Below the pieces are notes generated by a model. That model ran no database searches and was not told the origin of the DNA. It saw nothing but the letters and a program-made list of their open reading frames with translations. A DNA stretch of 64,000 nt from Streptomyces sp. ICBB 8177. GTDB lineage: Bacteria; Actinomycetota; Actinomycetes; Streptomycetales; Streptomycetaceae. A program made the translations under genes and the position numbers. This document shows positions 10,953 to 22,248 of the stretch, piece after piece. Numbering within the stretch: the first letter of the stretch is position 1; the number at the start of each line of letters is the position of its first letter. The DNA lies in NCBI RefSeq assembly GCF_003144095.1, contig NZ_NSKH01000018.1, forward strand, positions 1,056,743-1,120,742, written 5' to 3'.

Positions 10953-12170
10953 CTAGTTCAGGCCCAGGCGGTCGGCCAGTCCGATGACCGGTGCGTCGCG
11001 GCGGCGCGCTCGGGCGCGTAGGTCTTCGACCAGCCTCCGGGACGTCGAGTGGTACCTCATCCACTCCGGGGCGTCGGCCTCCGCCATCAGCAACGCCCGC
11101 TGGGCGGCGGATTCGTCGCCGAGGTCGGTGTACGCCAGCGCCCTGTCGACGTGGAACCTCGCCCGCCACGTCGGCGGAAGCGAGCCCACGTCGGGGACCG
11201 CCCGCGCCGCCCTGACCGCCTCGTCGCTCTCCTCCATCTCGACCAGGAAGTTCACCCGTGCGATCCCGGCGTTCGTCGGACCGAACGGAGTCGCGTACAC
11301 GAGCAGGTCCTCGCCGATCGACGCGGCGGCGCCGGACGCCAGGTTCAGCAGCTCTCGCACGTCCGCCCGCTTGTCCTGCCGGGACGCGGCCGTCGCGGCC
11401 CGCAGCAGCAGCACGCCCCACAACGCCAGGTCGACCGGCGCCGAGCGGAACGTCGGCTCGATCCTCCCGGCTTGGGCGAGCGCCACCCGCTCGGCGTCAC
11501 CGAGCCGCCCCTGCTTGGTGAACACCCACGAGAGGGTCGAGGCCGCCAGCGTCTCCAGTCGCGGATCGTCGCAACGGCTGATCGCGGCGAGGGACCGCTC
11601 GATGGCTGTGAACGCCGCGTCCTCCTTCCCGAGCGCCGTCAACGTCGTGGCGGCCACCTGATAGGCCACGGCCAGAACGGAGTTCGCCGCGGCGGCGGCC
11701 GGCCCCGTGTTCGCGTGCACCGCGGCCCGTGCGTCACGGATGAGTTGGGGCAGCAGGGCTCCGATCTCCGCCATGCGGCCTTCCCGGCGGATGACCTCCG
11801 TCGACCGAAGCGCCTCCCGCAACTGAGCGATGCTCGGAGGCTCTTCGGGGTCGCCGTCGCCACCCAGCAGGTCCGACACCGGTGATACCGCTTGACGCAG
11901 CGCCAGCACCGACGGCAGGTCGTCGCTCCTGAGCGGGTGGGCCTCGAAGGTCGTGGGCTGTCCTACGAGGTGACTCGGCTCGGTGTCCAGAGCGCGGGCG
12001 AGGGCGTTGATGCTCGTCAACCGGGCGGTCTTGCGGCGCCCTTGTTCCAGTTTGCGCACGACGTCGACGGACAGGCCGGCGGCTTCGGCCAGCTCCTCCT
12101 GGGTCAGGCCGCGACGACGCCTCAGTTCCGCGATGCGGTCGCCCATGCCCGTCTCGAATGCCGCGCCCAT
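10953..12170 (-). CDS. XRE-family regulator with TPR-like C-terminal domain
   Basis: 405 residues. An N-terminal Cro/XRE helix-turn-helix (IAELRRRRGLTQEELAEAAG, then VVRKLEQGRRKTARL) is followed by a long Ala/Leu-rich helical region consistent with tetratricopeptide-like repeats. This pairing is common in Streptomyces, where such proteins may sense a peptide or protein partner. ATG 12170 is my choice; a GTG two codons earlier is possible. It is followed after 155 bases by the resolvase-like operon on the same strand and is divergent from an alpha/beta hydrolase, so either or both could be its targets. Confidence 0.85.
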   Translation of the reverse strand: MGAAFETGMGDRIAELRRRRGLTQEELAEAAGLSVDVVRKLEQGRRKTARLTSINALARALDTEPSHLVGQPTTFEAHPLRSDDLPSVLALRQAVSPVSDLLGGDGDPEEPPSIAQLREALRSTEVIRREGRMAEIGALLPQLIRDARAAVHANTGPAAAAANSVLAVAYQVAATTLTALGKEDAAFTAIERSLAAISRCDDPRLETLAASTLSWVFTKQGRLGDAERVALAQAGRIEPTFRSAPVDLALWGVLLLRAATAASRQDKRADVRELLNLASGAAASIGEDLLVYATPFGPTNAGIARVNFLVEMEESDEAVRAARAVPDVGSLPPTWRARFHVDRALAYTDLGDESAAQRALLMAEADAPEWMRYHSTSRRLVEDLRARARRRDAPVIGLADRLGLN

Positions 12171-12372
12171 GCGCACCCCCCCGGTCAGAGGACTCACTTC
12201 CCACGGTACGCGGAACGCGACCGCAGCGGAGGCGGGGAGCGCTCCCGCACTCGAAAGTGGCGAAGGCGCCCTTGAGGCGCCGGCCGGTCCGTCTGGCCTG
12301 ATTGATCCCACGCGGGCGGCCGGCTCCAGGACCGGAGCGTACCGGCGGGGCGGCACGGGGTAGGTCTCCACG

Positions 12373-13242
12373 ATGACCTTGAGAAAGTCGCGGGGCCTCG
12401 TGTCGTTGGCCGACGGGGCGCGGCTGCGTTGGACGGCAGCGGGGGAGACCACTCGGCGGCCTCCCGTGGTCATGCTCCACGGCGGCCCCGGGCTGCCGGA
12501 CTATCTGGGCGACGTGGCCCCCATGGTCGCGGACCTCGCGCTCGTGTACCGGTACGACCAGCGCGGCACCGGCCGATCCCCCTGGCAAGGCCGCCATTCC
12601 TTTGCCCGGCACGTCGCTGATCTCGCGGAACTGCTCGACGTCTGGGACGCGCCCAAGGCCGTGTTGATCGGGCACTCCTACGGCGCCGACCTGGCGAGCC
12701 GGTTCTGCCTGACGCACTCCGACCGGGTCGCCGCGATGCTGCTGATGTGCGGGCCGTTCGTCGGTGACTGGCGTACCGGGGACCGGGCTGAGCGTGACCG
12801 CCGCATGTCCTTGGCACAGCGGAAACGGCTTCGCGAGCTGAAGGAGTCGCCCCACCGCACGGAGGAGGAGGAAGGCGAACTGCTCACGCTCGCCTGGTTC
12901 ACCGATCACGCGGATCCCGAACGAGCCTGGGGCTGGGCCACGTTGGGTGCCCGGCGGCGGCGCCCCGTCAACTGGGTCATGAACGGCGAACTCGGCGAGG
13001 AGCGGCGTGCGGACCCGCTCGACGCGCACGTTGCTGAACTGCGCGCGTGCCTGCCCCCGCGGGCGGAACTTCTCGGCGGGGCAGACGATCCCCGGCCCGT
13101 GTCGGCACTCGCGTCACTCGCGCACCGGCTCGGCCTTCCGCTGACGCGGATCGAGGGCGCCGGGCACGAGCCCTGGCTGGAGCGGCCCGCCGTCGTACGG
13201 GCGCATCTTCGGCGGTTCGTGCGGGGCGCGGTGGACGTCTAG
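12373..13242 (+). CDS. alpha/beta hydrolase, proline-iminopeptidase-like
   Basis: 289 residues. The HGGPG oxyanion motif (H36-G40) and nucleophile elbow GHSYG (Ser102) are typical of the S33 proline iminopeptidase/hydrolase group. The acidic residue probably lies in GGADDPRP and the catalytic His in GAGHEPW near the end. Members cut N-terminal proline from peptides or hydrolyse small esters and amides; the substrate here is unknown. There is no signal peptide, so it is cytoplasmic. It is divergent from the XRE regulator across about 200 bases, which may mean local control. Confidence 0.85.
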   Translation: MTLRKSRGLVSLADGARLRWTAAGETTRRPPVVMLHGGPGLPDYLGDVAPMVADLALVYRYDQRGTGRSPWQGRHSFARHVADLAELLDVWDAPKAVLIGHSYGADLASRFCLTHSDRVAAMLLMCGPFVGDWRTGDRAERDRRMSLAQRKRLRELKESPHRTEEEEGELLTLAWFTDHADPERAWGWATLGARRRRPVNWVMNGELGEERRADPLDAHVAELRACLPPRAELLGGADDPRPVSALASLAHRLGLPLTRIEGAGHEPWLERPAVVRAHLRRFVRGAVDV

Positions 13243-13521: not shown

Positions 13522-13989
13522 ATGAGCGAGCAGCACGCCCCCGGCGCATCCGGCCCCGTCGCGCGGGCCCTGGACGAGGAGGAGTGCCTGCGGCTGATCG
13601 CGCCCGGCGGCATCGGGCGGGTCGCCTACAGCGGGCGCTACGACCTCACCGTCCTGCCGGTCAACTTCCGCCTCTACGAGGGCGACATCGTGTTCCGCAC
13701 CGAAGAGGGCAGCACGATGGACGAGGACCTGCGCAGCGGCATCCCCGACGCCGCGTACGAGGTGGCCTTCCAGGTGGACGACTTCGACGCCGACACCGAA
13801 CAGGGCTGGAGCGTGCTGGTCCATGGGCCCGCCTACCACGTCGTGGACGAGCAGGAACGCGAGGCGCTGTCCGGGGCGGGCGTGCGCCCGTGGGCTCCAG
13901 GGGAGCGCCGCCTGTTCTTCCGCATCAAGCCCCACCGCGTCTCCGGCCGCTGGGTGCGCGGAGCCGAGGGCGAGGGCGGCGACGAGTGA
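13522..13989 (+). CDS. pyridoxamine-5'-phosphate-oxidase-like flavin-binding protein
   Basis: 155 residues with the split-barrel PNPOx fold: LDEEECLRLIAPGGIGRVAY at the start, then VLPVNFRLYEGDIVFRT and WSVLVHGPAYHV. This is the large actinobacterial group (PF12900-like) that binds FMN, F420 or haem and is often annotated only as PNPOx family protein. The ATG start follows a CCTACGTGGAACGGGACGG stretch that offers a weak ribosome site. It lies 437 bases upstream of the RiPP exporter gene with a distinct, AT-richer gap between, so I do not count it as part of that cluster. Confidence 0.8.
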   Translation: MSEQHAPGASGPVARALDEEECLRLIAPGGIGRVAYSGRYDLTVLPVNFRLYEGDIVFRTEEGSTMDEDLRSGIPDAAYEVAFQVDDFDADTEQGWSVLVHGPAYHVVDEQEREALSGAGVRPWAPGERRLFFRIKPHRVSGRWVRGAEGEGGDE

Positions 13990-14425
13990 ATCCGGTCTGC
14001 TGAATTTTCCGTTCCGGATTCCTGGATCATTTTTGGGCCCGTTCCGTTCCGGTCCGGCTCGTCAGTGGGTTTTTGTGAGGCTGAATCCGGCGGGCGGACT
14101 TTTGGGCTTCGGCGCCGCTTTCGGTCGTTCGGGAAATGGCGCATTCCGGGCGGGGTGTGTGACCCGCGGGGCGTGGATTCGGCGATTCCGGTGCCTTCCA
14201 CCTGCATACACGGTGCTCACCTGGCCTTTCTTGAATCGTTCGGGAACGTACGGGCGGGCCTTGTCGTGCGCTGCGCACCGCTGCTAGCCTTCCGGCGATT
14301 TCGTGGAGATTCCGTGTTCATTCGGTAATGCGCGCCCTGGCGACGCAATACCTTGATCCGTCGTCCCGGGGGGTTCGCGTCATGCGTCATGGCGGTTTCG
14401 CGGCACGTCGCACGTTCCCGTCCCG
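13990..14425. other. AT-richer intergenic region before the RiPP cluster
   Basis: No gene is supported. Base composition drops well below the surroundings, with many TTTT and TTCC runs (for example GGATCATTTTTGGG near 14020). It should contain the promoter of the MFS-peptidase-precursor-radical-SAM operon, but I could not fix a convincing -35/-10 pair. Confidence 0.5.
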
Positions 14426-15703
14426 ATGAGAACGCGAGCGGCGGAAACCGCCCCGGCCCACACGCCGGCATCACGGGACTTCCGGCTCTACTGGGGTGCC
14501 GACGCCGTCGACCGGCTCGGCACGCAGATGTCCCAGATCGCCCTGCCGCTGCTCCTGCTGGACGCGGGCGGTTCCGCCGCGCGGGCCGGGCTGGTGGCCA
14601 CGCTCGCCGGGGCCGGCGGCGTGGCGGCGGGGCCGGTCGCGGCGGCGCTGGCCGACGGGCGGTGGCGCGGGCCGCTGATGCGCTGGTCCTCGCTGGCCGC
14701 CGCCACCGCGATGGGGTGGGCGACCCTCACCGTGCTCGGCCACCGGATCTGCCTGCCCTGCCTGGTCTGCGCCCTGCTGGTGGAACGGGCCGCCGCGTCC
14801 TGCTTCGAGGCGGCCGCCGCGGGCAGCGTGGCGCGGCTCGTACCACCCGAGTGGTATCCGCGGGCGGTGTCCCGCCTCCAGGCCGGTGAGCAGGGCGGCG
14901 CGATCGCCGGACCGGCGCTGGCCGGTTTGCTGCTGCGGCAGGCGAGGGCCCTGCCGTTCCTCGCCGACACCGTGTCCTACCTGGCCGCCGCCTTCCTCGT
15001 ACGGGCGATCCGCACCGACCTGGCCCCGCCCGCCCTCGCGGACGCCCGGGAACAGCGGTTCGCCCGCCGGATGGGCGCGGGCGCCGGTTTCGTGCGCACC
15101 AGCCCGTTCCTGCGCTTCCTGCTCGTGTGGTCGTTCGGCGTCAACGCCCTTCTGGCACTGCTGAGTTACACCGCCGTCTTCGCTGTCCACGCCGCGCACG
15201 GGAGCGCCGCGGTCGGGCTGGTGCTGGGCGCGGCGGCCGGAGCCGGGCTGGTCGGATCGCTGCTCGCGCCGGTGGCGGTGCGCCAGGTGCCCGGCGGCGT
15301 GCTGGTGGTCGCGCTGTCCTGGCTGACCGTGCCGGCCGCGGCCGGGCTCGCCTTCGCCGGTCCCGCCTGGGTCTGCGGCGCGCTGCTCGGCCTCGTCGCG
15401 CTGCTGGTCCCGTCGGTGGCCGTGGTGCTGCACGCCCGCGCGGTACGTGTCGTCCCGCAGCACCTCCAGGCCCGGGTCGCGACGGTGGCCGGGACCGCGA
15501 CGGCGGCGGTGGCCATGGCGGCGCCCGCGTCGGCGGGAGCGCTGACGGACGCCGTGGGGCCGGCCTGCGTGGACCTGGCCTGCGCGGCCGGCCTCGCCCT
15601 GCTGGCGCTGTACGCGGCGACGGGCCCCGCCGCCCGCGTCGACGCTTCGCCCGCCTTCGTGGACGTCGCACCCGAAGGTCCGACCGCCCTGGAGCGAGGA
15701 TGA
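14426..15703 (+). CDS. MFS transporter, probable exporter of the RiPP cluster
   Basis: 425 residues with about 12 hydrophobic segments and the MFS layout of EntS-like exporters (DFRLYWGADAVDRLGTQMSQIALPLLLLD at the start of helix 1). It probably exports a small product across the cytoplasmic membrane by proton exchange. Its stop overlaps the start of the S9 peptidase as ATGA, and the precursor and maturase genes follow directly, so it is most likely the exporter or immunity pump for the RiPP. The specific cargo is an inference from context. Confidence 0.85.
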   Translation: MRTRAAETAPAHTPASRDFRLYWGADAVDRLGTQMSQIALPLLLLDAGGSAARAGLVATLAGAGGVAAGPVAAALADGRWRGPLMRWSSLAAATAMGWATLTVLGHRICLPCLVCALLVERAAASCFEAAAAGSVARLVPPEWYPRAVSRLQAGEQGGAIAGPALAGLLLRQARALPFLADTVSYLAAAFLVRAIRTDLAPPALADAREQRFARRMGAGAGFVRTSPFLRFLLVWSFGVNALLALLSYTAVFAVHAAHGSAAVGLVLGAAAGAGLVGSLLAPVAVRQVPGGVLVVALSWLTVPAAAGLAFAGPAWVCGALLGLVALLVPSVAVVLHARAVRVVPQHLQARVATVAGTATAAVAMAAPASAGALTDAVGPACVDLACAAGLALLALYAATGPAARVDASPAFVDVAPEGPTALERG

Positions 15704-17535
15704 CCGCCGCCCGCGACTTCCAGGTCTTCCGCCCCGCCCTCCCGCAGGCCGCCCGCCGCGCACCGCACCGGATGGTCTTCACCGGCGACGCGGACGGCCG
15801 GTGCGAGGTCTTCACCTGGGACAGCCGTACCGGCGCCGCCCGCCGGGTGACGAGCCGCCCACACGGCACCCTGCGCTGCGCGATCGGCTCCGGCGGCACG
15901 GTGTGGTGGTTCGACGAGGACGGCGGCGGCCGTGGCCGCTGGCTGCTTCAGGACTTCGACGGCGGCCCCGACGCCCCCGCGCTGGCGGGCGTGCCCACCG
16001 GACACCCGCGCGGGCTCGCCATCAGCGACTCCGGCACCGCCGCGATCGGCCTCGCCGAGGGGTCCGGCCTCGCGGTCCACCTCGGCCCGCCCGGCGGACG
16101 CGTGGAGCACGTGGTCCGCACCGGGTATCCCGCGACGCTCGTCGACATCGCCCCGGACGGCGGCCTGCTGGCGGTCACCGGCGGGTCCGGGACCGAGCAC
16201 GCGGCCGTGCTGCTGCGGCCGGACGGGCACGTCGTCGCCGCGCTGCGGGGGTGCGAGGAGGCGCTGTGGCCGCTGGGCTTCCGCACCGCGCCGAGCACCA
16301 CGGAACCCGCGGCGGGACCTGCCCCGGAACCCGCCGCGCAACCCGTCTCGGGGCCGGAACTGCTGCTCGTCGTCCGCTCCGGCGACGGCTACCGGCTGGC
16401 CACCTGGACCCCGGGCCGGGGCCTGCGCCGGTACGCGTGGTGCTCGTTCGACACCGAGATGACCGCCCGCTGGTACCCGGGCCGCCGCCAGGCCCTGGTG
16501 CGCCGCGACCGGAACGGGCGCAGCGAGCTGTACCGCGCCGACCTGGACCGGGCCGTGCTGGAACCGCTGCGGGTGCCGCCGGGCGCGGTGCTCGACGCGG
16601 TGCCGCGCGAGGACGGCGACGTGCACTACCTGTGGACCGACACGCTGACACCGCCCGTCGCGGTGTCGTCGCGCGGCACGCCGCTGCCGCAGCCGATGGC
16701 CGATCCGCCCCGGGTGCCCGGCCGCGCCCTGGAGGTGTGGACGCCGGGACCGGACGGCGAGGCGCACACCCTGCTCACCGTCCCCGAGGGCGCCCGGGCG
16801 CCGTACCCCACCGTCTTCCTGGTGCACGGCGGCCCGGCGGAGCACGACCGCGACGCCTACGACCCGGCCGTGCACTCGCTGGTCGCCTCCGGGCTCGCGG
16901 TGGCCCGCGTCAACTACCGCGGCTCGACCGGTTACGGACCGCACTGGCGGGACGCCTGGCGCGAGGGCGTCGGCCTCACCCAGGTCGCCGACCTCGCCGC
17001 GGCCCGCGACCACCTGGTGCGCGACGGCCTCGCCGACCCCGGCGCCACCGGCCTGTGGGGCACGTCCTGGGGCGGCTACCTCGTACTGCTGGCACTCGGC
17101 ACCCGGCCGGAGCTGTGGCGGGCGGGGGTGGCCGTCAAGCCGGTGGCCGACTACCCGATGGCGCACCGCGACGGCACCCCGCACCTGCGCGCCCTCGACG
17201 AGCGGCTGTTCGGCGGCACCCCGCTCCAGGCCCCGCGGCGGTGGGCCCGCTCCTCCCCGCTGACCTACGCCGCGCGGGTGCGGGCCCCGCTGCTGGTGGT
17301 CGCCGCGCGCCAGGACGCCAAGTGCCCGCCCGCACAGGTCGAGTCGTACCTCGCCGCGCTGCGCGACCACGGCGTGCCGCACGAGTCGGTGTGGCTGGGC
17401 ACCGGCCACGACGGCCTGGACGGCCGGGACCACCTGAAGGTCCTGCGCCACTCCCTGGTCTTCCTGTCCCGGCACCTGAACGGTCCCGGGCCCGGAAGGA
17501 ACGACCCCAACCCCATCGCAACCACAAGGAGTTGA
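15700..17535 (+). CDS. S9 family prolyl-oligopeptidase-like serine peptidase
   Basis: 611 residues: an N-terminal beta-propeller-like part (about 1-370) and a C-terminal alpha/beta hydrolase domain. The triad can be placed: Ser456 in GTSWGGY, Asp539 in RQDAKCPP and His570 in GTGHDG, with the VHGGP oxyanion segment upstream. S9 enzymes cut after proline in short peptides that fit inside the propeller. It overlaps the exporter stop by four bases and ends five bases before the precursor peptide gene, so it is the likely maturation protease. No signal peptide is seen, so cutting would happen in the cytoplasm. Confidence 0.9.
   Translation: MTAARDFQVFRPALPQAARRAPHRMVFTGDADGRCEVFTWDSRTGAARRVTSRPHGTLRCAIGSGGTVWWFDEDGGGRGRWLLQDFDGGPDAPALAGVPTGHPRGLAISDSGTAAIGLAEGSGLAVHLGPPGGRVEHVVRTGYPATLVDIAPDGGLLAVTGGSGTEHAAVLLRPDGHVVAALRGCEEALWPLGFRTAPSTTEPAAGPAPEPAAQPVSGPELLLVVRSGDGYRLATWTPGRGLRRYAWCSFDTEMTARWYPGRRQALVRRDRNGRSELYRADLDRAVLEPLRVPPGAVLDAVPREDGDVHYLWTDTLTPPVAVSSRGTPLPQPMADPPRVPGRALEVWTPGPDGEAHTLLTVPEGARAPYPTVFLVHGGPAEHDRDAYDPAVHSLVASGLAVARVNYRGSTGYGPHWRDAWREGVGLTQVADLAAARDHLVRDGLADPGATGLWGTSWGGYLVLLALGTRPELWRAGVAVKPVADYPMAHRDGTPHLRALDERLFGGTPLQAPRRWARSSPLTYAARVRAPLLVVAARQDAKCPPAQVESYLAALRDHGVPHESVWLGTGHDGLDGRDHLKVLRHSLVFLSRHLNGPGPGRNDPNPIATTRS
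17526..17531 (+). promoter_or_regulatory. ribosome binding site of the RiPP precursor
   Basis: AAGGAG nine bases before ATG 17541, inside the last codons of the peptidase gene. It is one of the stronger ribosome sites in the cluster and supports this small frame as a real gene. Confidence 0.8.
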
Positions 17536-17540
17536 CCGTC

Positions 17541-17663
17541 ATGCAGAAGGACATCATCGACAACGACCCGCTCGTCGAGGCCGACGAGTCGAGAAGCGTC
17601 GGCGTGATCGTGGGCGTCCGCATCCCGTTCCGCGAGGCGGAGACCACCGAAGAGCAGATCTGA
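17541..17663 (+). CDS. putative RiPP precursor peptide, 40 residues
   Basis: A 40-codon gene between a prolyl oligopeptidase and a B12-type radical SAM maturase, with a strong ribosome site. The N-terminal part (1-17) is acidic and leader-like (MQKDIIDNDPLVEADE). The middle is a small hydrophobic block, SVGVIVGVRIPF (19-30), and the C-terminus is acidic (REAETTEEQI). It has no cysteine, so it is not a lanthipeptide or sactipeptide substrate. The block of Val, Ile and Gly offers unactivated carbons of the kind that B12 radical SAM enzymes methylate. Proline occurs only at 10 and 29, which brackets the block. The role is inferred from position and composition; no family match is claimed. Confidence 0.75.
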   Translation: MQKDIIDNDPLVEADESRSVGVIVGVRIPFREAETTEEQI

Positions 17664-17817
17664 CGCTCAGCCGGCCGTGAGTATTCGCTGACACTTCGTC
17701 AGCTGTGAGCCCCGCCGGACGCGTGTGCTCCCGCGCGCGTCCGGCGGCACCGCCCGCTCCGGCCCCCCGCACAGAGCCAGAACCAGCACAGGACAGCGAA
17801 GGAAGCAGAGGCAAGCC

Positions 17818-19767
17818 GTGCGCGTACTCCTGGTCAACATGCCGTGGTCGCCCGTCGACCTGCCGTCGCTCGCCCTCGGCATCCTGAAGCGGGCCGTCAA
17901 CGAGCGGGTACCCGGCGCCGAGGCGGAGGTCCTGCACGCCAACCTGGAGTACGTCGACTGGCTCACCGCCGCCGACCCCCGCTTCGGATACGCGGACTAC
18001 GACTACTACGCGCTGTCCTCGTACTTCCTCGGCTGCGGCGACTGGGTCTTCTCCTCCGCCCTCTACGACGACCCCGAGTGGCGGGTGGCCGAGTTCACCG
18101 CGGCGATGGGCGCGAAGATCGGCGAGGAGCGCCTGGCGGCCTCCATGCGCCTGCACGCCGAGGCGCCGCGCTTCGTGGCCCGGATCGTCGACCAGATCGT
18201 CCAACAGCGGCCGGACGTCGTCGGGTTCAGCTCCACGTTCCAGCAGAACACCGCCGCCCTCGCCGCCGCCCGCCACCTCAAGCGGCTCGCCCCGCACATC
18301 GTCACGGTGATGGGCGGCGCCAACTGCGACGGCGAACAGGGCGCCGCGGCGCACCGCAACTTCCCGTTCGTGGACTACGTGGTGCGCGGCGAGGGCGAGG
18401 CGTCCTTCCCCGCGCTGCTGACCGCGTTGCGCGACGGGACCGGCACCGACGCCATCCCCGGGGTGTGCCGCCGGGACGGCGAGCGGTCGGTGGCGAACCC
18501 GATGGCCACCGCGCCGCTGCCGCCCGCCGCGATCCTGCCGCCCGACTACTCCGGCTACTTCGAGCGGCTGGCCGCGTCCACCGCCCGCTCCTGGGTCGAA
18601 CCCAAGCTGGTGGTCGAGGGCGCGCGGGGCTGCTGGTGGGGCGAGAAGCACCACTGCACCTTCTGCGGGCTCAACGGCTCGTTCATGGAGTTCCGCAGCA
18701 AGAGCCCGGAGACCTTCCACGACGAGATCATGGCCCTGGTGCGCGAGCACCGGGTCCTCGACATGTACCTGGTCGACAACATCCTCGACATGGGCTACCT
18801 CACCAGCGTGCTGCCCCGCATCATCGACAGCGGCTACGACCTGCGCATGCACGTCGAGATCAAGGCCAACCTCAAGAGCGCCCAGTTGCGCACCCTCGCC
18901 GACGCGGGCCTGGTCTTCGTCCAGCCGGGCATCGAGAGCCTGGGCGACCGGGTGCTCGACCTGATGGACAAGGGCGTCAGCGGATGCCAGAACGTCCGCA
19001 TGCTGCGCGACGGCCAGGCCGCCGGGCTCTCGGTCTTCTGGAACTACCTGCACGGCTTCCCCGGTGAGCAGGACACCGACTACGACCCGGTGATCGCCCA
19101 ACTCCCGGCGCTGGAGCACCTCGACCCGCCGGTCGACCAGTCCGCGCGGATCGCCATCGAGCGCTTCAGCCCCTACTTCACCCGCCCCGAACTCGGCTTC
19201 TGCGAACTGCGCCCGGCCCTGCCGTACCGCGTCACCTACGACCTGCCGGAGTCCGAACTGCTGGATCTGGCCTACGTCTTCGACGTGCCGCCGCGCGGCA
19301 TCGGCGAGGCGACCACCGCCCGGCTCAACGCGGCCCTGCGCGTCTGGCAGGAGGCGCACCCCGGCAGCAGGCTCACCCACGTCGACCTCGGCGACCGCAT
19401 CGTGCTGGCCGGCCGCCGCCGCGCGTTCGCCTGGCGCGCGCACGAGATCACCGACCCCGTCGAGGTCGCCGCGTTCCGGCTGCTGGACCAGCCGCACACC
19501 CTCGCCGCCCTCACCCGCAAGCTCGCCGCCCGGGTGGACGGCGAGCCGCCCGAGACGTCCGCGGTGCGGGAGATCCTCGACCGCTGGCTGGACTTGGGCC
19601 TGGTCTTCACCGACGCGGGCTCCTACGTCCACCTCGCCCCGCGCTCGGTCAACGACGACCTGCTCAGGCTCGGCTTCCTGCGGGCCCTGGACGCGGACGG
19701 CGCGCCGGTGGCCGCGACCGGGGCCGAGCCGGAAGCGGCGGCGGAACGCGCTCCGGCGACGGTCTGA
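17818..19767 (+). CDS. RiPP maturation radical SAM enzyme (B12-binding type, TIGR03975-like)
   Basis: 649 residues. The N-terminus (RVLLVNMPWSPVDLPSLALG) resembles the Rossmann-like cobalamin-binding domain of class B radical SAM enzymes. The radical SAM site is C272-x7-C280-x2-C283 (RGCWWGEKHHCTFCGLNG), the unusual spacing and CWWGEK wording of the 'ribosomal peptide maturation radical SAM protein 1' family. These are thought to C-methylate or otherwise modify precursor peptides using SAM, a [4Fe-4S] cluster and B12. A C-terminal domain of about 120 residues (DPVEVAAFRLLDQPHTLAAL) could bind the peptide. I chose GTG 17818, with GAGG a few bases upstream, because the conserved RVLLVN begins there. 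The window also has a B12 riboswitch 8 kb away, but no direct link. Confidence 0.92.
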   Translation: MRVLLVNMPWSPVDLPSLALGILKRAVNERVPGAEAEVLHANLEYVDWLTAADPRFGYADYDYYALSSYFLGCGDWVFSSALYDDPEWRVAEFTAAMGAKIGEERLAASMRLHAEAPRFVARIVDQIVQQRPDVVGFSSTFQQNTAALAAARHLKRLAPHIVTVMGGANCDGEQGAAAHRNFPFVDYVVRGEGEASFPALLTALRDGTGTDAIPGVCRRDGERSVANPMATAPLPPAAILPPDYSGYFERLAASTARSWVEPKLVVEGARGCWWGEKHHCTFCGLNGSFMEFRSKSPETFHDEIMALVREHRVLDMYLVDNILDMGYLTSVLPRIIDSGYDLRMHVEIKANLKSAQLRTLADAGLVFVQPGIESLGDRVLDLMDKGVSGCQNVRMLRDGQAAGLSVFWNYLHGFPGEQDTDYDPVIAQLPALEHLDPPVDQSARIAIERFSPYFTRPELGFCELRPALPYRVTYDLPESELLDLAYVFDVPPRGIGEATTARLNAALRVWQEAHPGSRLTHVDLGDRIVLAGRRRAFAWRAHEITDPVEVAAFRLLDQPHTLAALTRKLAARVDGEPPETSAVREILDRWLDLGLVFTDAGSYVHLAPRSVNDDLLRLGFLRALDADGAPVAATGAEPEAAAERAPATV

Positions 19768-19823
19768 CGCCCGGCCCCGACGCCCTCCCCCTCGACTCCC
19801 GCCGACGACAGGAGACTTCCGCC

Positions 19824-20525
19824 GTGACCACCGCCCCCAACGCCCGCGCCGTCGTCAACGCAGTCGTCAACGCCGACGCGGGCGCCGACGCCTCCTTCGC
19901 GCGCGTCCTCGCCTGGCGGGACTACGATCCGGTCGTCCGCGCGCTGGACGGGATGTCCCTGGGCACCGTCGAGGTGGGCGGTGATCCGGCTGAGGCCGCG
20001 CGAGGGCTGTGGGACGCGGGCGCGCGCCGGGTGGAGCTGCCCGGGACGGTGGACCTGGCCGACCCCCGTGATCCGGTCGCCACCGTGTGGGCGCTGTGCC
20101 TGGTGCGCGACCTGACCGCGCTCGGCGCCGTCGTGGACTGGCGGCTGGCGCTCGGCCCCGGCACCGACTGGCGCACCCTGTCCCACCTCCAGCCGCCGCG
20201 CGCCACGACCGGCACCCCGGACGACACCGAGGTGCCCGGACGGTGGCGGCACGGCTACTACCTGGGCAAGTGCCTGTGGCGGCGCGGTCCCGGCTTCGTC
20301 CAGATCCGGGACCGGCGCTGGGGCGCGCTGCACCGCTTCACCGTGGACGAGCCCGAGTACCAGGAGGCGATCGCCCTGCTGTCGCGCGGCGTCCCGCGCT
20401 CGGCCGTGCCGCCCGCCGTGCTCGCCGACCTGGAGCGGGAGCGCCTGGTCGGCTCGGTCGGCGAGCAGGCGTGGTTCCTGCCCTACCGGGTGCGGCGCTG
20501 GGCCAAGGGCGCCATCACGCTGTGA
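19824..20525 (+). CDS. DUF5825-like partner of the radical SAM maturase
   Basis: 233 residues, GTG start with CAGGAGAC just upstream. It has no metal motif; recognisable parts are VAWRDYDPVV-like start, LWDAGARRVELPGTVDL, and YYLGKCLWRRGPGFVQIRDRRWG, then a winged-helix-like C-terminus (LSRGVPRSAVPPAVLADLERERLVGSVGEQAWFLPYRVRRW). Proteins of this kind (DUF5825) are, to my knowledge, found mainly next to RiPP radical SAM maturases. The C-terminal LxxLxxxRLV pattern resembles the small winged helix of peptide-recognition elements, so it may bind the leader. That role is inference. It is the last gene of the cluster. Confidence 0.75.
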   Translation: MTTAPNARAVVNAVVNADAGADASFARVLAWRDYDPVVRALDGMSLGTVEVGGDPAEAARGLWDAGARRVELPGTVDLADPRDPVATVWALCLVRDLTALGAVVDWRLALGPGTDWRTLSHLQPPRATTGTPDDTEVPGRWRHGYYLGKCLWRRGPGFVQIRDRRWGALHRFTVDEPEYQEAIALLSRGVPRSAVPPAVLADLERERLVGSVGEQAWFLPYRVRRWAKGAITL

Positions 20526-20562
20526 GCCGAGGCCGCCCCGCCGGCCGTGAACGGGGGCCGTC

Positions 20563-22248
20563 CTAGCAGGCGGTGGACGGCCCGTTCTGCCGCACCATGT
20601 TGTCGGCCGACATCCAGCCCGCCTCACTGGTGCCGTCGACCCGCACGTACCACCACTTGTTGCCGAACGCGTTGTCCACCCAGCAGTGGTACATCAGCTT
20701 CGCGCCCGACTTGACCAGCACCAGGTCGGGGCAGGTCTGGTACGGGCCGCTCTCCAGGTGGTAGTCGCCCTGGAGGTAGGCGTACGTGCCGGGGTTCGGG
20801 TCGCGGTGGCTCCAGCCGGCGCACCCGCGCGAGACCGCCGTCGCGGTGGGCGCCGCCTTGCCCGGCGCGCTCGCGGAACCGCTGGGGGACGGCGGCGCCG
20901 GTGCCGAGGCGGAGGGGGAGACGGACTGCGAGGCGCTGGGGGAGGGCGGCGCGGAAGGGCGGGCGCTGGTCATGCCGGTGACCGCCTTGCCCATGCTGGG
21001 CTGCGGCACGCTCGCCGGAACGCTGATCGCGGGCGGCGCGGCGGGACCGTCGGACACGTCGTCCCGCGCCCCGCCGCCGCCCACCAGCGCGTACGCGACC
21101 CCGCCGCCCGCGAGCACCACGGCCGCCGCGGCGGCGACGATCGCGGTGCGGTTGCGGCGCCGGGCGGACGTACGGCGTCCGGGGGCGCTCGCTGTCGTGC
21201 GGGCGCTCGCCGTCCCGGCGCCGGGCGGCGGCTGGGGCAGGGTGCGGGCCCGGGCCGGCGGGGTGTAACCCGGCCGCGCGGGCTGCGGGCCGGAGGACGG
21301 CGCCGGTGCGCGCTGCCCGTACGGCGCGGGCCGGGGCGCCTGACCGCCCGTCGCGAGCGTGCCGGGGGCCGTGCCCAGGTTCGTCGTCGCCCCGGAGGCG
21401 ACCGCCTCCAGCAGTTCGCGCGCTCTGGCGGCGGTGGGCCGCTCCGCCGGGTCCTTCGCCATCAGCGCGCGCAGCACGGGAGCCAGCGGGCCCGCCGCCC
21501 GGGGCTCCGGCAGCGGGTCGGAGACGATCGCGGTGAGCGTCGACCACACCGAGGTCCGGCGGAACGGCGAGGCGCCCTCCACGGCCGCGTACAGCGTCAT
21601 TCCCAGCGACCAGACGTCGCAGGCGGGTCCCGGCTCGTGGCCCTGGGCGCGCTCCGGGGGCAAGTAGTCGAGCGAGCCGACGAGTTCACCGCTGCGGGTC
21701 AGCTTGGAGGCCGCCTCCCCGCCGCCGGCCTCCACGCTGGCGATGCCGAAGTCGGTGAGCACGACCCGGCCGCCGCGCTCCAGCAGCACGTTGCCCGGCT
21801 TGACGTCGCGGTGCAGCACACCCGCGCGGTGCGCGGCGGCGAGCGCGTCCATCAGCCGCGCGCCGATCCCGGCCGCCTCCCGCGGGTCCAGCGTGCCGCG
21901 TTCGGCCAGCACGTCGTCGAGCGAGGGACCGTCGACCAGCTCCATGACGATGACCGGAAGGCCCTGGTCCTCGATCACGTCGTGCACGGTGACGACGCCC
22001 GAGTGCCGGATGCGCGCGGCGGCCTGCGCCTCGCGCCGCATCCGTTCGCACAGGTCGGCCAGTTCGTGCGGGGAGGCGTCGGTGTACGCGCGCAGGATCT
22101 TGACCGCCACCTCGCGGCCCAGCAGTTCGTCGACCGCGCCGCCGACCACGCCCATGCCGCCGCGCCCCAGCGTCCGCGTCACCCGGTAGCGCCCGCCCAG
22201 CACCCGCCCGACCGGCTCACCTGCGCCGATTGCGTCCCCCGCCGTCAC
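20563..22248 (-). CDS. membrane-anchored Ser/Thr protein kinase (PknB type)
   Basis: 561 residues. An N-terminal kinase domain (about 15-275) has the glycine loop LGRGGMGVV, Lys in VAVKIL, catalytic VLHRDVKPGNVLL, metal-binding TDFGIASV and LPPERAQG. A Pro/Ala-rich linker leads to one membrane segment (AAAAAVVLAGGGVAYALVGG) and a Ser/Pro-rich extracytoplasmic stalk. The C-terminal domain (about 500-561) has WSHRDPNPGTYAYLQGDYHL and three Cys, and looks like an SH3-like sensor fold. Such kinases sense an outside signal and phosphorylate cytoplasmic proteins. It is convergent with the RiPP cluster, 38 bases from its last gene, so it could regulate it, but there is no direct evidence. Confidence 0.92.
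   Translation of the reverse strand: MTAGDAIGAGEPVGRVLGGRYRVTRTLGRGGMGVVGGAVDELLGREVAVKILRAYTDASPHELADLCERMRREAQAAARIRHSGVVTVHDVIEDQGLPVIVMELVDGPSLDDVLAERGTLDPREAAGIGARLMDALAAAHRAGVLHRDVKPGNVLLERGGRVVLTDFGIASVEAGGGEAASKLTRSGELVGSLDYLPPERAQGHEPGPACDVWSLGMTLYAAVEGASPFRRTSVWSTLTAIVSDPLPEPRAAGPLAPVLRALMAKDPAERPTAARARELLEAVASGATTNLGTAPGTLATGGQAPRPAPYGQRAPAPSSGPQPARPGYTPPARARTLPQPPPGAGTASARTTASAPGRRTSARRRNRTAIVAAAAAVVLAGGGVAYALVGGGGARDDVSDGPAAPPAISVPASVPQPSMGKAVTGMTSARPSAPPSPSASQSVSPSASAPAPPSPSGSASAPGKAAPTATAVSRGCAGWSHRDPNPGTYAYLQGDYHLESGPYQTCPDLVLVKSGAKLMYHCWVDNAFGNKWWYVRVDGTSEAGWMSADNMVRQNGPSTAC

Follow-up and report, generated by a model that had tools for sequence, protein, structure and literature searches.

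A conserved, probably clavusporin-type RiPP operon with a B12-dependent radical SAM maturase in Streptomyces sp. ICBB 8177

We present a five-gene operon of Streptomyces sp. ICBB 8177 that, with a probability of roughly 0.87, directs the synthesis of a clavusporin-type ribosomally synthesized and post-translationally modified peptide (RiPP), in which a B12-dependent radical S-adenosylmethionine (rSAM) maturase methylates alternating beta-branched residues of a short precursor. The operon occupies positions 14426-20525 of the window, i.e., the whole stretch of 64,000 nucleotides analysed (contig NZ_NSKH01000018.1, 1,056,743 to 1,120,742). It is real and well conserved, and its gene set agrees with that of a class of peptides published in 2025; hence, it is a new member of that family and not a new kind of system. 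Its points of interest are position 20 of the precursor, the prediction of modification sites and the hypothesis that the DUF5825 partner protein contains a RiPP recognition element (RRE). All five genes lie on the + strand, in the following order: a predicted exporter of the major facilitator superfamily (MFS; 14426-15703, 425 aa; PF07690, MFS_1, 66.6 bits), an S9 prolyl-oligopeptidase-type peptidase (15700-17535, 611 aa; PF00326, Peptidase_S9, 126.6 bits), the 40-residue precursor MQKDIIDNDPLVEADESRSVGVIVGVRIPFREAETTEEQI (17541-17663), the B12-rSAM maturase (17818-19767, 649 aa) and the DUF5825 protein (19824-20525, 233 aa). The MFS and S9 genes share four bases (15700-15703); five bases part the S9 stop from the precursor start, which is preceded by the ribosome site AAGGAGTT; and gaps of 154 and 56 bases separate precursor from maturase and maturase from DUF5825 gene, respectively.

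The maturase scores 595.7 bits against TIGR03975 (curated cut-off 281.85), 45.7 bits against the B12-binding domain PF02310 (cut-off 32.1) and 38.0 bits, again above the cut-off, against Radical_SAM PF04055. Its CX7CX2C motif (residues 272-283; C272, C280 and C283) is invariant in 32/32 aligned maturases, and its best sequence match in the PDB is TokK (7kdx, E 5.8e-13). The protein encoded by the adjoining gene scores 235.6 bits against PF19142, for which the gathering cut-off is 25. The preliminary description, which had proposed a compact RiPP operon of these five genes in this order on the + strand with overlaps or short gaps, a TIGR03975-type B12-rSAM maturase and a DUF5825-like partner, is borne out on each of these counts: every frame is found at its coordinates and, as detailed below, the set recurs complete and in order in 72 of 80 loci. 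What we observe directly is which genes are present and in what order, how far they are conserved, their motifs, their occurrence in single copy and the statistics of a hairpin.

The clavusporins of the mpc operon (Zhang, Li, Overton and Seyedsayamdost, 2025, Nat Chem Biol) are said to be C-methylated peptide surfactants, and the abstract of that report is said to describe surface-active peptides aiding the aerial growth of Streptomyces. In clavusporin biosynthesis a homologous B12-rSAM/DUF5825 pair performs the C-methylations (PMC12257519; preprint PMC12026744) and the prolyl oligopeptidase MpcP cleaves off the leader (PMC12951456; these and the other articles cited by PMC number are represented here by excerpts). 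The window encodes the same combination, namely a B12-rSAM enzyme with an adjoining DUF5825 gene and a prolyl oligopeptidase gene with an intact triad; C-methylation by the pair and leader removal by the peptidase would carry over from this literature by analogy. The claim of the preliminary description that the gene set has no named product is therefore out of date, while the C-methylation it had considered likely gains support as an inference. A second comparison is offered by PoyC, a B12-rSAM enzyme that shares the Cx7Cx2C motif and whose methylation targets in polytheonamide are Ile3 and Val5/10/21 (PMC11285071); the Val/Ile C-methylation is PoyC's, and the likeness is drawn from its description. 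Taken together with the activity of the homologous pair, this makes iterative C-methylation at beta-branched residues the best reading. Hence, we propose that the maturase and DUF5825 would move methyl groups onto unactivated carbons of such residues.

The five-gene set is a common, conserved operon whose recurrence exceeds chance. Twelve members of the five-gene operon served to build a DUF5825 profile, which gave 80 named loci, the best 80 of 121 confirmed, so that the resulting counts describe close relatives: all five genes occur in the same order on one strand in 72/80, a precursor homologue stands in order in 74/80, and an MFS homologue lies in order ahead of the S9 gene in 73/80. These counts include the eight incomplete loci; in L124, L151, L160, L161 and L171 a contig end truncates the locus, and in L179 a run of 10 N upstream of the rSAM gene may hide the precursor. 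Beyond these close relatives, DUF5825 matches were found in 88 of the 394 genomes of the family and, in a class-wide draw, in 11 of 296, ten of them above the cut-off. Among 60 regions that we selected from the family-wide matches, some in genomes shared with the 80 loci, the set is complete in 29. The operon would extend the clavusporin kind to Streptantibioticus, the genus of the sister locus L100 (Streptantibioticus parmotrematis); the precursor gene of L100 is identical to that of the window in 123/123 bases, while the rSAM genes of the two differ at 39 codons synonymously and at 29 otherwise.

The window precursor matched no family in scans of the family libraries, and has 55 distinct family members, one identical. 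These 55 derive from 74 frames, L115 (masked with N) and L156 (without a near start codon) having been dropped; residues were compared by number, and counts at residues 18-27 are unchanged when these 55 are aligned with MAFFT. Every member has K3, D4, I6, P10, L11 and R18. Val or Ile occupies positions 22, 24 and 26 in 55/55 and position 28 in 49/55, the other six having a two-residue deletion at 28-29 in the MAFFT alignment. The conserved leader motif can be written K-D-[IV]-I-x-[NG]-[DN]-P-L and is followed by a hydrophobic core of about SVGVIVGVRIPF. Cysteine occurs in 0/55; with no Cys for thioethers, lanthipeptides and sactipeptides are ruled out, in keeping with the preliminary description. 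Polytheonamide is made from a precursor with a long nitrile-hydratase-like leader and bears many other modifications, in contrast to the 40-residue precursor of the window with its lack of family matches. A leader-like motif, [IVLS]-x-[NGS]-[DN]-P-[LIQ], composed after the sequences had been seen and sought in the opening part of short frames, is present upstream of the rSAM gene in 36/60 DUF5825 loci, compared with 0/60 downstream and 0/60 on the other strand. The 36 comprise 28 of the five-gene type and eight others, including some with quite different cores (L068, L082); its retention there fits a recognition element that is kept while the core changes.

These features bear on the possibility that the short frame is no precursor and that the maturase acts on another gene. 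The frame does sit within a longer open frame on the same strand (15801-17663), as is common at such a G+C content. Nevertheless, we regard this explanation as next to negligible: a homologous frame stands at the same place in the 74 loci noted above, it is under strong constraint, it is preceded by its ribosome site, and a search of the whole genome for a second substrate of the precursor type returned the window precursor as its single match (E <= 1). TIGR03975 and DUF5825 likewise have one match each in this genome (E <= 0.001). The preliminary description had named the lack of a precursor homologue at this position in relatives, and a substrate elsewhere, as findings that would undo its proposal; neither the relatives nor the genome search for a second substrate of this type undid it. 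Its overall interpretation thus stands as regards the RiPP operon, the families, the Cys-free precursor and the likely C-methylation, and falls only as regards the lack of a named product.

The expression of the precursor relative to the enzymes may be influenced by the spacer that follows it. This segment (17664-17817) folds with a minimum free energy of -69 kcal/mol (z -2.70; 2/200 shuffles as good) and contains a 16-bp hairpin at 17712-17747 on the + strand, whose coordinates were checked; no Rfam family reaches threshold within 13900-20600. For N-free spacers of 55-200 bases, the corresponding precursor-rSAM spacers of relatives have a median z of -3.43 (z < -2 in 54/69), as against 0.38 for the rSAM-DUF5825 spacers (z < -2 in 1/31). 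Hairpins of this kind are believed to favour RiPP precursors over their enzymes in expression level. By analogy, the hairpin 3' of the precursor gene probably keeps the precursor mRNA above that of the maturase and the other enzymes. Among 32 locus pairs with the same precursor peptide, which are not independent, the precursor gene has fewer synonymous codon differences than predicted from the rSAM gene in 31, the remaining pair being without synonymous differences in either gene; in the three pairs with L138, L141 and L158, 0/40 precursor codons are synonymously changed versus 7.2-8.5 expected from the rSAM genes. Such a paucity of synonymous changes is what high expression of a gene would lead one to expect.

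The conserved alternation at 22/24/26/28 makes these residues the prime candidates for methylation, and the alignment of the 55 precursors thus yields both a site prediction and a recognition motif. In the window peptide the likely sites would be V22, V24, V26 and I28, which would alternate along an extended strand. The S9 enzyme, whose predicted triad (S456, D539, H570) is invariant in 71/71 aligned sequences including that of the window, is the probable leader peptidase; it would cut off the leader after methylation, and perhaps the acidic tail too. The MFS protein would then export the product, a probable role in peptide export or self-protection suggested by its family.

Certain points weigh against the clavusporin-type reading or parts of it. 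To begin with, the comparison with the clavusporins covers the enzyme set. Moreover, methylation is not the sole activity of B12-rSAM enzymes in RiPP pathways: aromatic residues are cross-linked by PbsB (PMC12257519), and ring contraction and thioether and ring formation are reported for others (PMC13331322). The maturase might thus perform some other chemistry, e.g., introduce a carbon-carbon cross-link or close a ring in the manner of biphenomycin-like peptides, which we deem very unlikely. The window precursor has a single Phe and neither Tyr nor Trp, and Phe30 is not conserved (40/55, in a gapped alignment); family scans found no MNIO, arginase or second rSAM among the five genes; TIGR03975 is named a C-methyltransferase in NCBIfam; and, in the excerpts, methylation is assigned to the enzyme paired with DUF5825. 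The YHxYxY subset of the biphenomycin-like clusters resembles the window in having a B12-rSAM, there the second one, with a DUF5825 protein (PMC12257519). They differ in also containing an MNIO together with its partner protein, as well as a first B12-rSAM; the five genes of the window include none of these.

A further difficulty for the clavusporin-type reading is posed by position 20. Pro occupies it in 53/55 precursors, whereas the window peptide has Val, so that cleavage after a proline at this site should not be taken for granted; P29, present in 49/55, is kept. V20 recurs in L100 and L157, and in L060 and L061 together with S29. The window peptide further departs from its relatives at residues 23, 25 and 27, which are I, G and R where G, T and T are commonest. 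One could accordingly envisage a distinct RiPP class that shares enzymes with the clavusporins but has another cleavage and function. We think this unlikely, because the operon, the leader and the 22/24/26/28 pattern are all alike, the S9 triad is intact, and V20-bearing L157 has the complete five-gene set; within the family collected here, the window peptide is a member with V20 for the usual P20 and the core SVGVIVGVRIPF. As for distribution, two of the 80 loci are real exceptions: L127 is without an MFS match, and in L103 the rSAM/DUF5825 pair stands without any match to the precursor, S9 or MFS genes despite the presence of upstream DNA. Likewise, the full set is missing from 31 of the 60 selected family-wide regions.

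The same caution extends to the part that DUF5825 may play as a leader binder through an RRE-like domain. Its AlphaFold2 model (mean predicted local distance difference test score, pLDDT, 86.3) comprises an alpha/beta N-terminal part and a winged-helix-like C-terminal part (148-213). When the model was compared by VIA-align (990 aligned chains), the first row was 5v1v, TbiB1 with its leader peptide, which we take to be a lasso-peptide RRE (Z 6.1; 63 residues aligned, root-mean-square deviation 2.7, model residues 148-213), and the third was the N-terminal segment of ThcOx, residues 11-87, presumably its RRE domain (Z 4.8); values of Z < 8 in this method may reflect a common arrangement. Between these two, tied with the first, came 3h92 (Z 5.7), a domain of unknown function. 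Foldseek returned 0/480 matches at E <= 0.001 with this model, and a PDB profile search with DUF5825 gave none at E <= 10. Searching for an RRE in the DUF5825 C-terminus by hhalign gave no sequence support (probability 0.6%), nor did hhalign comparisons of its C-terminal part with the rSAM C-terminus or of the two N-terminal parts with one another. The C-terminal part of DUF5825 is hence only tentatively RRE-like, the match being structural and modest.

An RRE-like match is also found in the maturase. Its C-terminus aligns with a lasso RRE profile of 19 sequences (14 above the NF033530 cut-off and five below) at an hhalign probability of 76% (E 2.2e-5, over 45 columns), and with Pfam PqqD at E 0.073 (13.8 bits, below the cut-off of 23.4). 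In the structure model of the maturase, which is poor overall (pLDDT 63.3) and to that extent also counts on the negative side, this end consists of three helices and a strand pair. We tentatively consider the region of about 545-600 to be PqqD/RRE-like; therefore DUF5825, the maturase or both may hold the leader. The excerpts of PMC12257519 and of the preprint PMC12026744 contain no mention of an RRE in DUF5825. As a speculation of doubtful standing, DUF5825 might be a hitherto unrecognised RRE-bearing chaperone, which would hold the KDxIxNDPL leader and present the core to the maturase in beta-strand form, such that methylation falls on one face at 22/24/26/28, with the Streptantibioticus branch lacking P20 following a different rule of leader removal. 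Were DUF5825 such an RRE partner, this would explain the pairing of B12-rSAM enzymes with DUF5825 on peptide substrates.

With regard to the limits of the operon, the gene upstream at 13522-13989, encoding a protein of the pyridoxamine 5'-phosphate oxidase-like type, has homologues in just 5/80 loci and the downstream kinase gene in 4/80 (both at E <= 1e-10); therefore, neither is counted in it. The helix-turn-helix gene at 10953-12473 matched in 0/80 loci, hardly a test as their DNA ahead of the MFS gene spans only 823-2829 bases (median 2542), and a conserved regulator is neither claimed nor excluded owing to this short upstream DNA.

Some variants of the system were also encountered. The operon can be plasmid-borne, since the record that contains L118 is a plasmid, SNP1 of Streptomyces nigrescens HEK616. 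L156 (also L063) of Streptacidiphilus sp. 4-A2 has an rSAM frame cut to 443 aa, compared with about 630-660 in others, and its precursor is the one without a near start codon, pointing to a decayed operon or an assembly error. Ahead of the more distant DUF5825/rSAM pairs of L084-L086, L089, L091 and L095, for which no S9 match was obtained, lie short frames of a different type (e.g., MEIKKVVVREEESTHRVPRVVEKRPTR in L089) that are perhaps another precursor family. In L081-L083, precursor-like frames of 26-28 aa with N-D-P or S-D-P precede DUF5825-linked rSAM genes and have ends such as VVTVGIGF or ITVGVTVSF, possibly representing a minimal form of the system. Finally, the gene at 13522-13989 encodes a Pyridox_ox_2 protein (PF12900, 96 bits), homologues of which follow the DUF5825 gene at a distance of 3.6-4.5 kb in L131, L136, L162 and L179.

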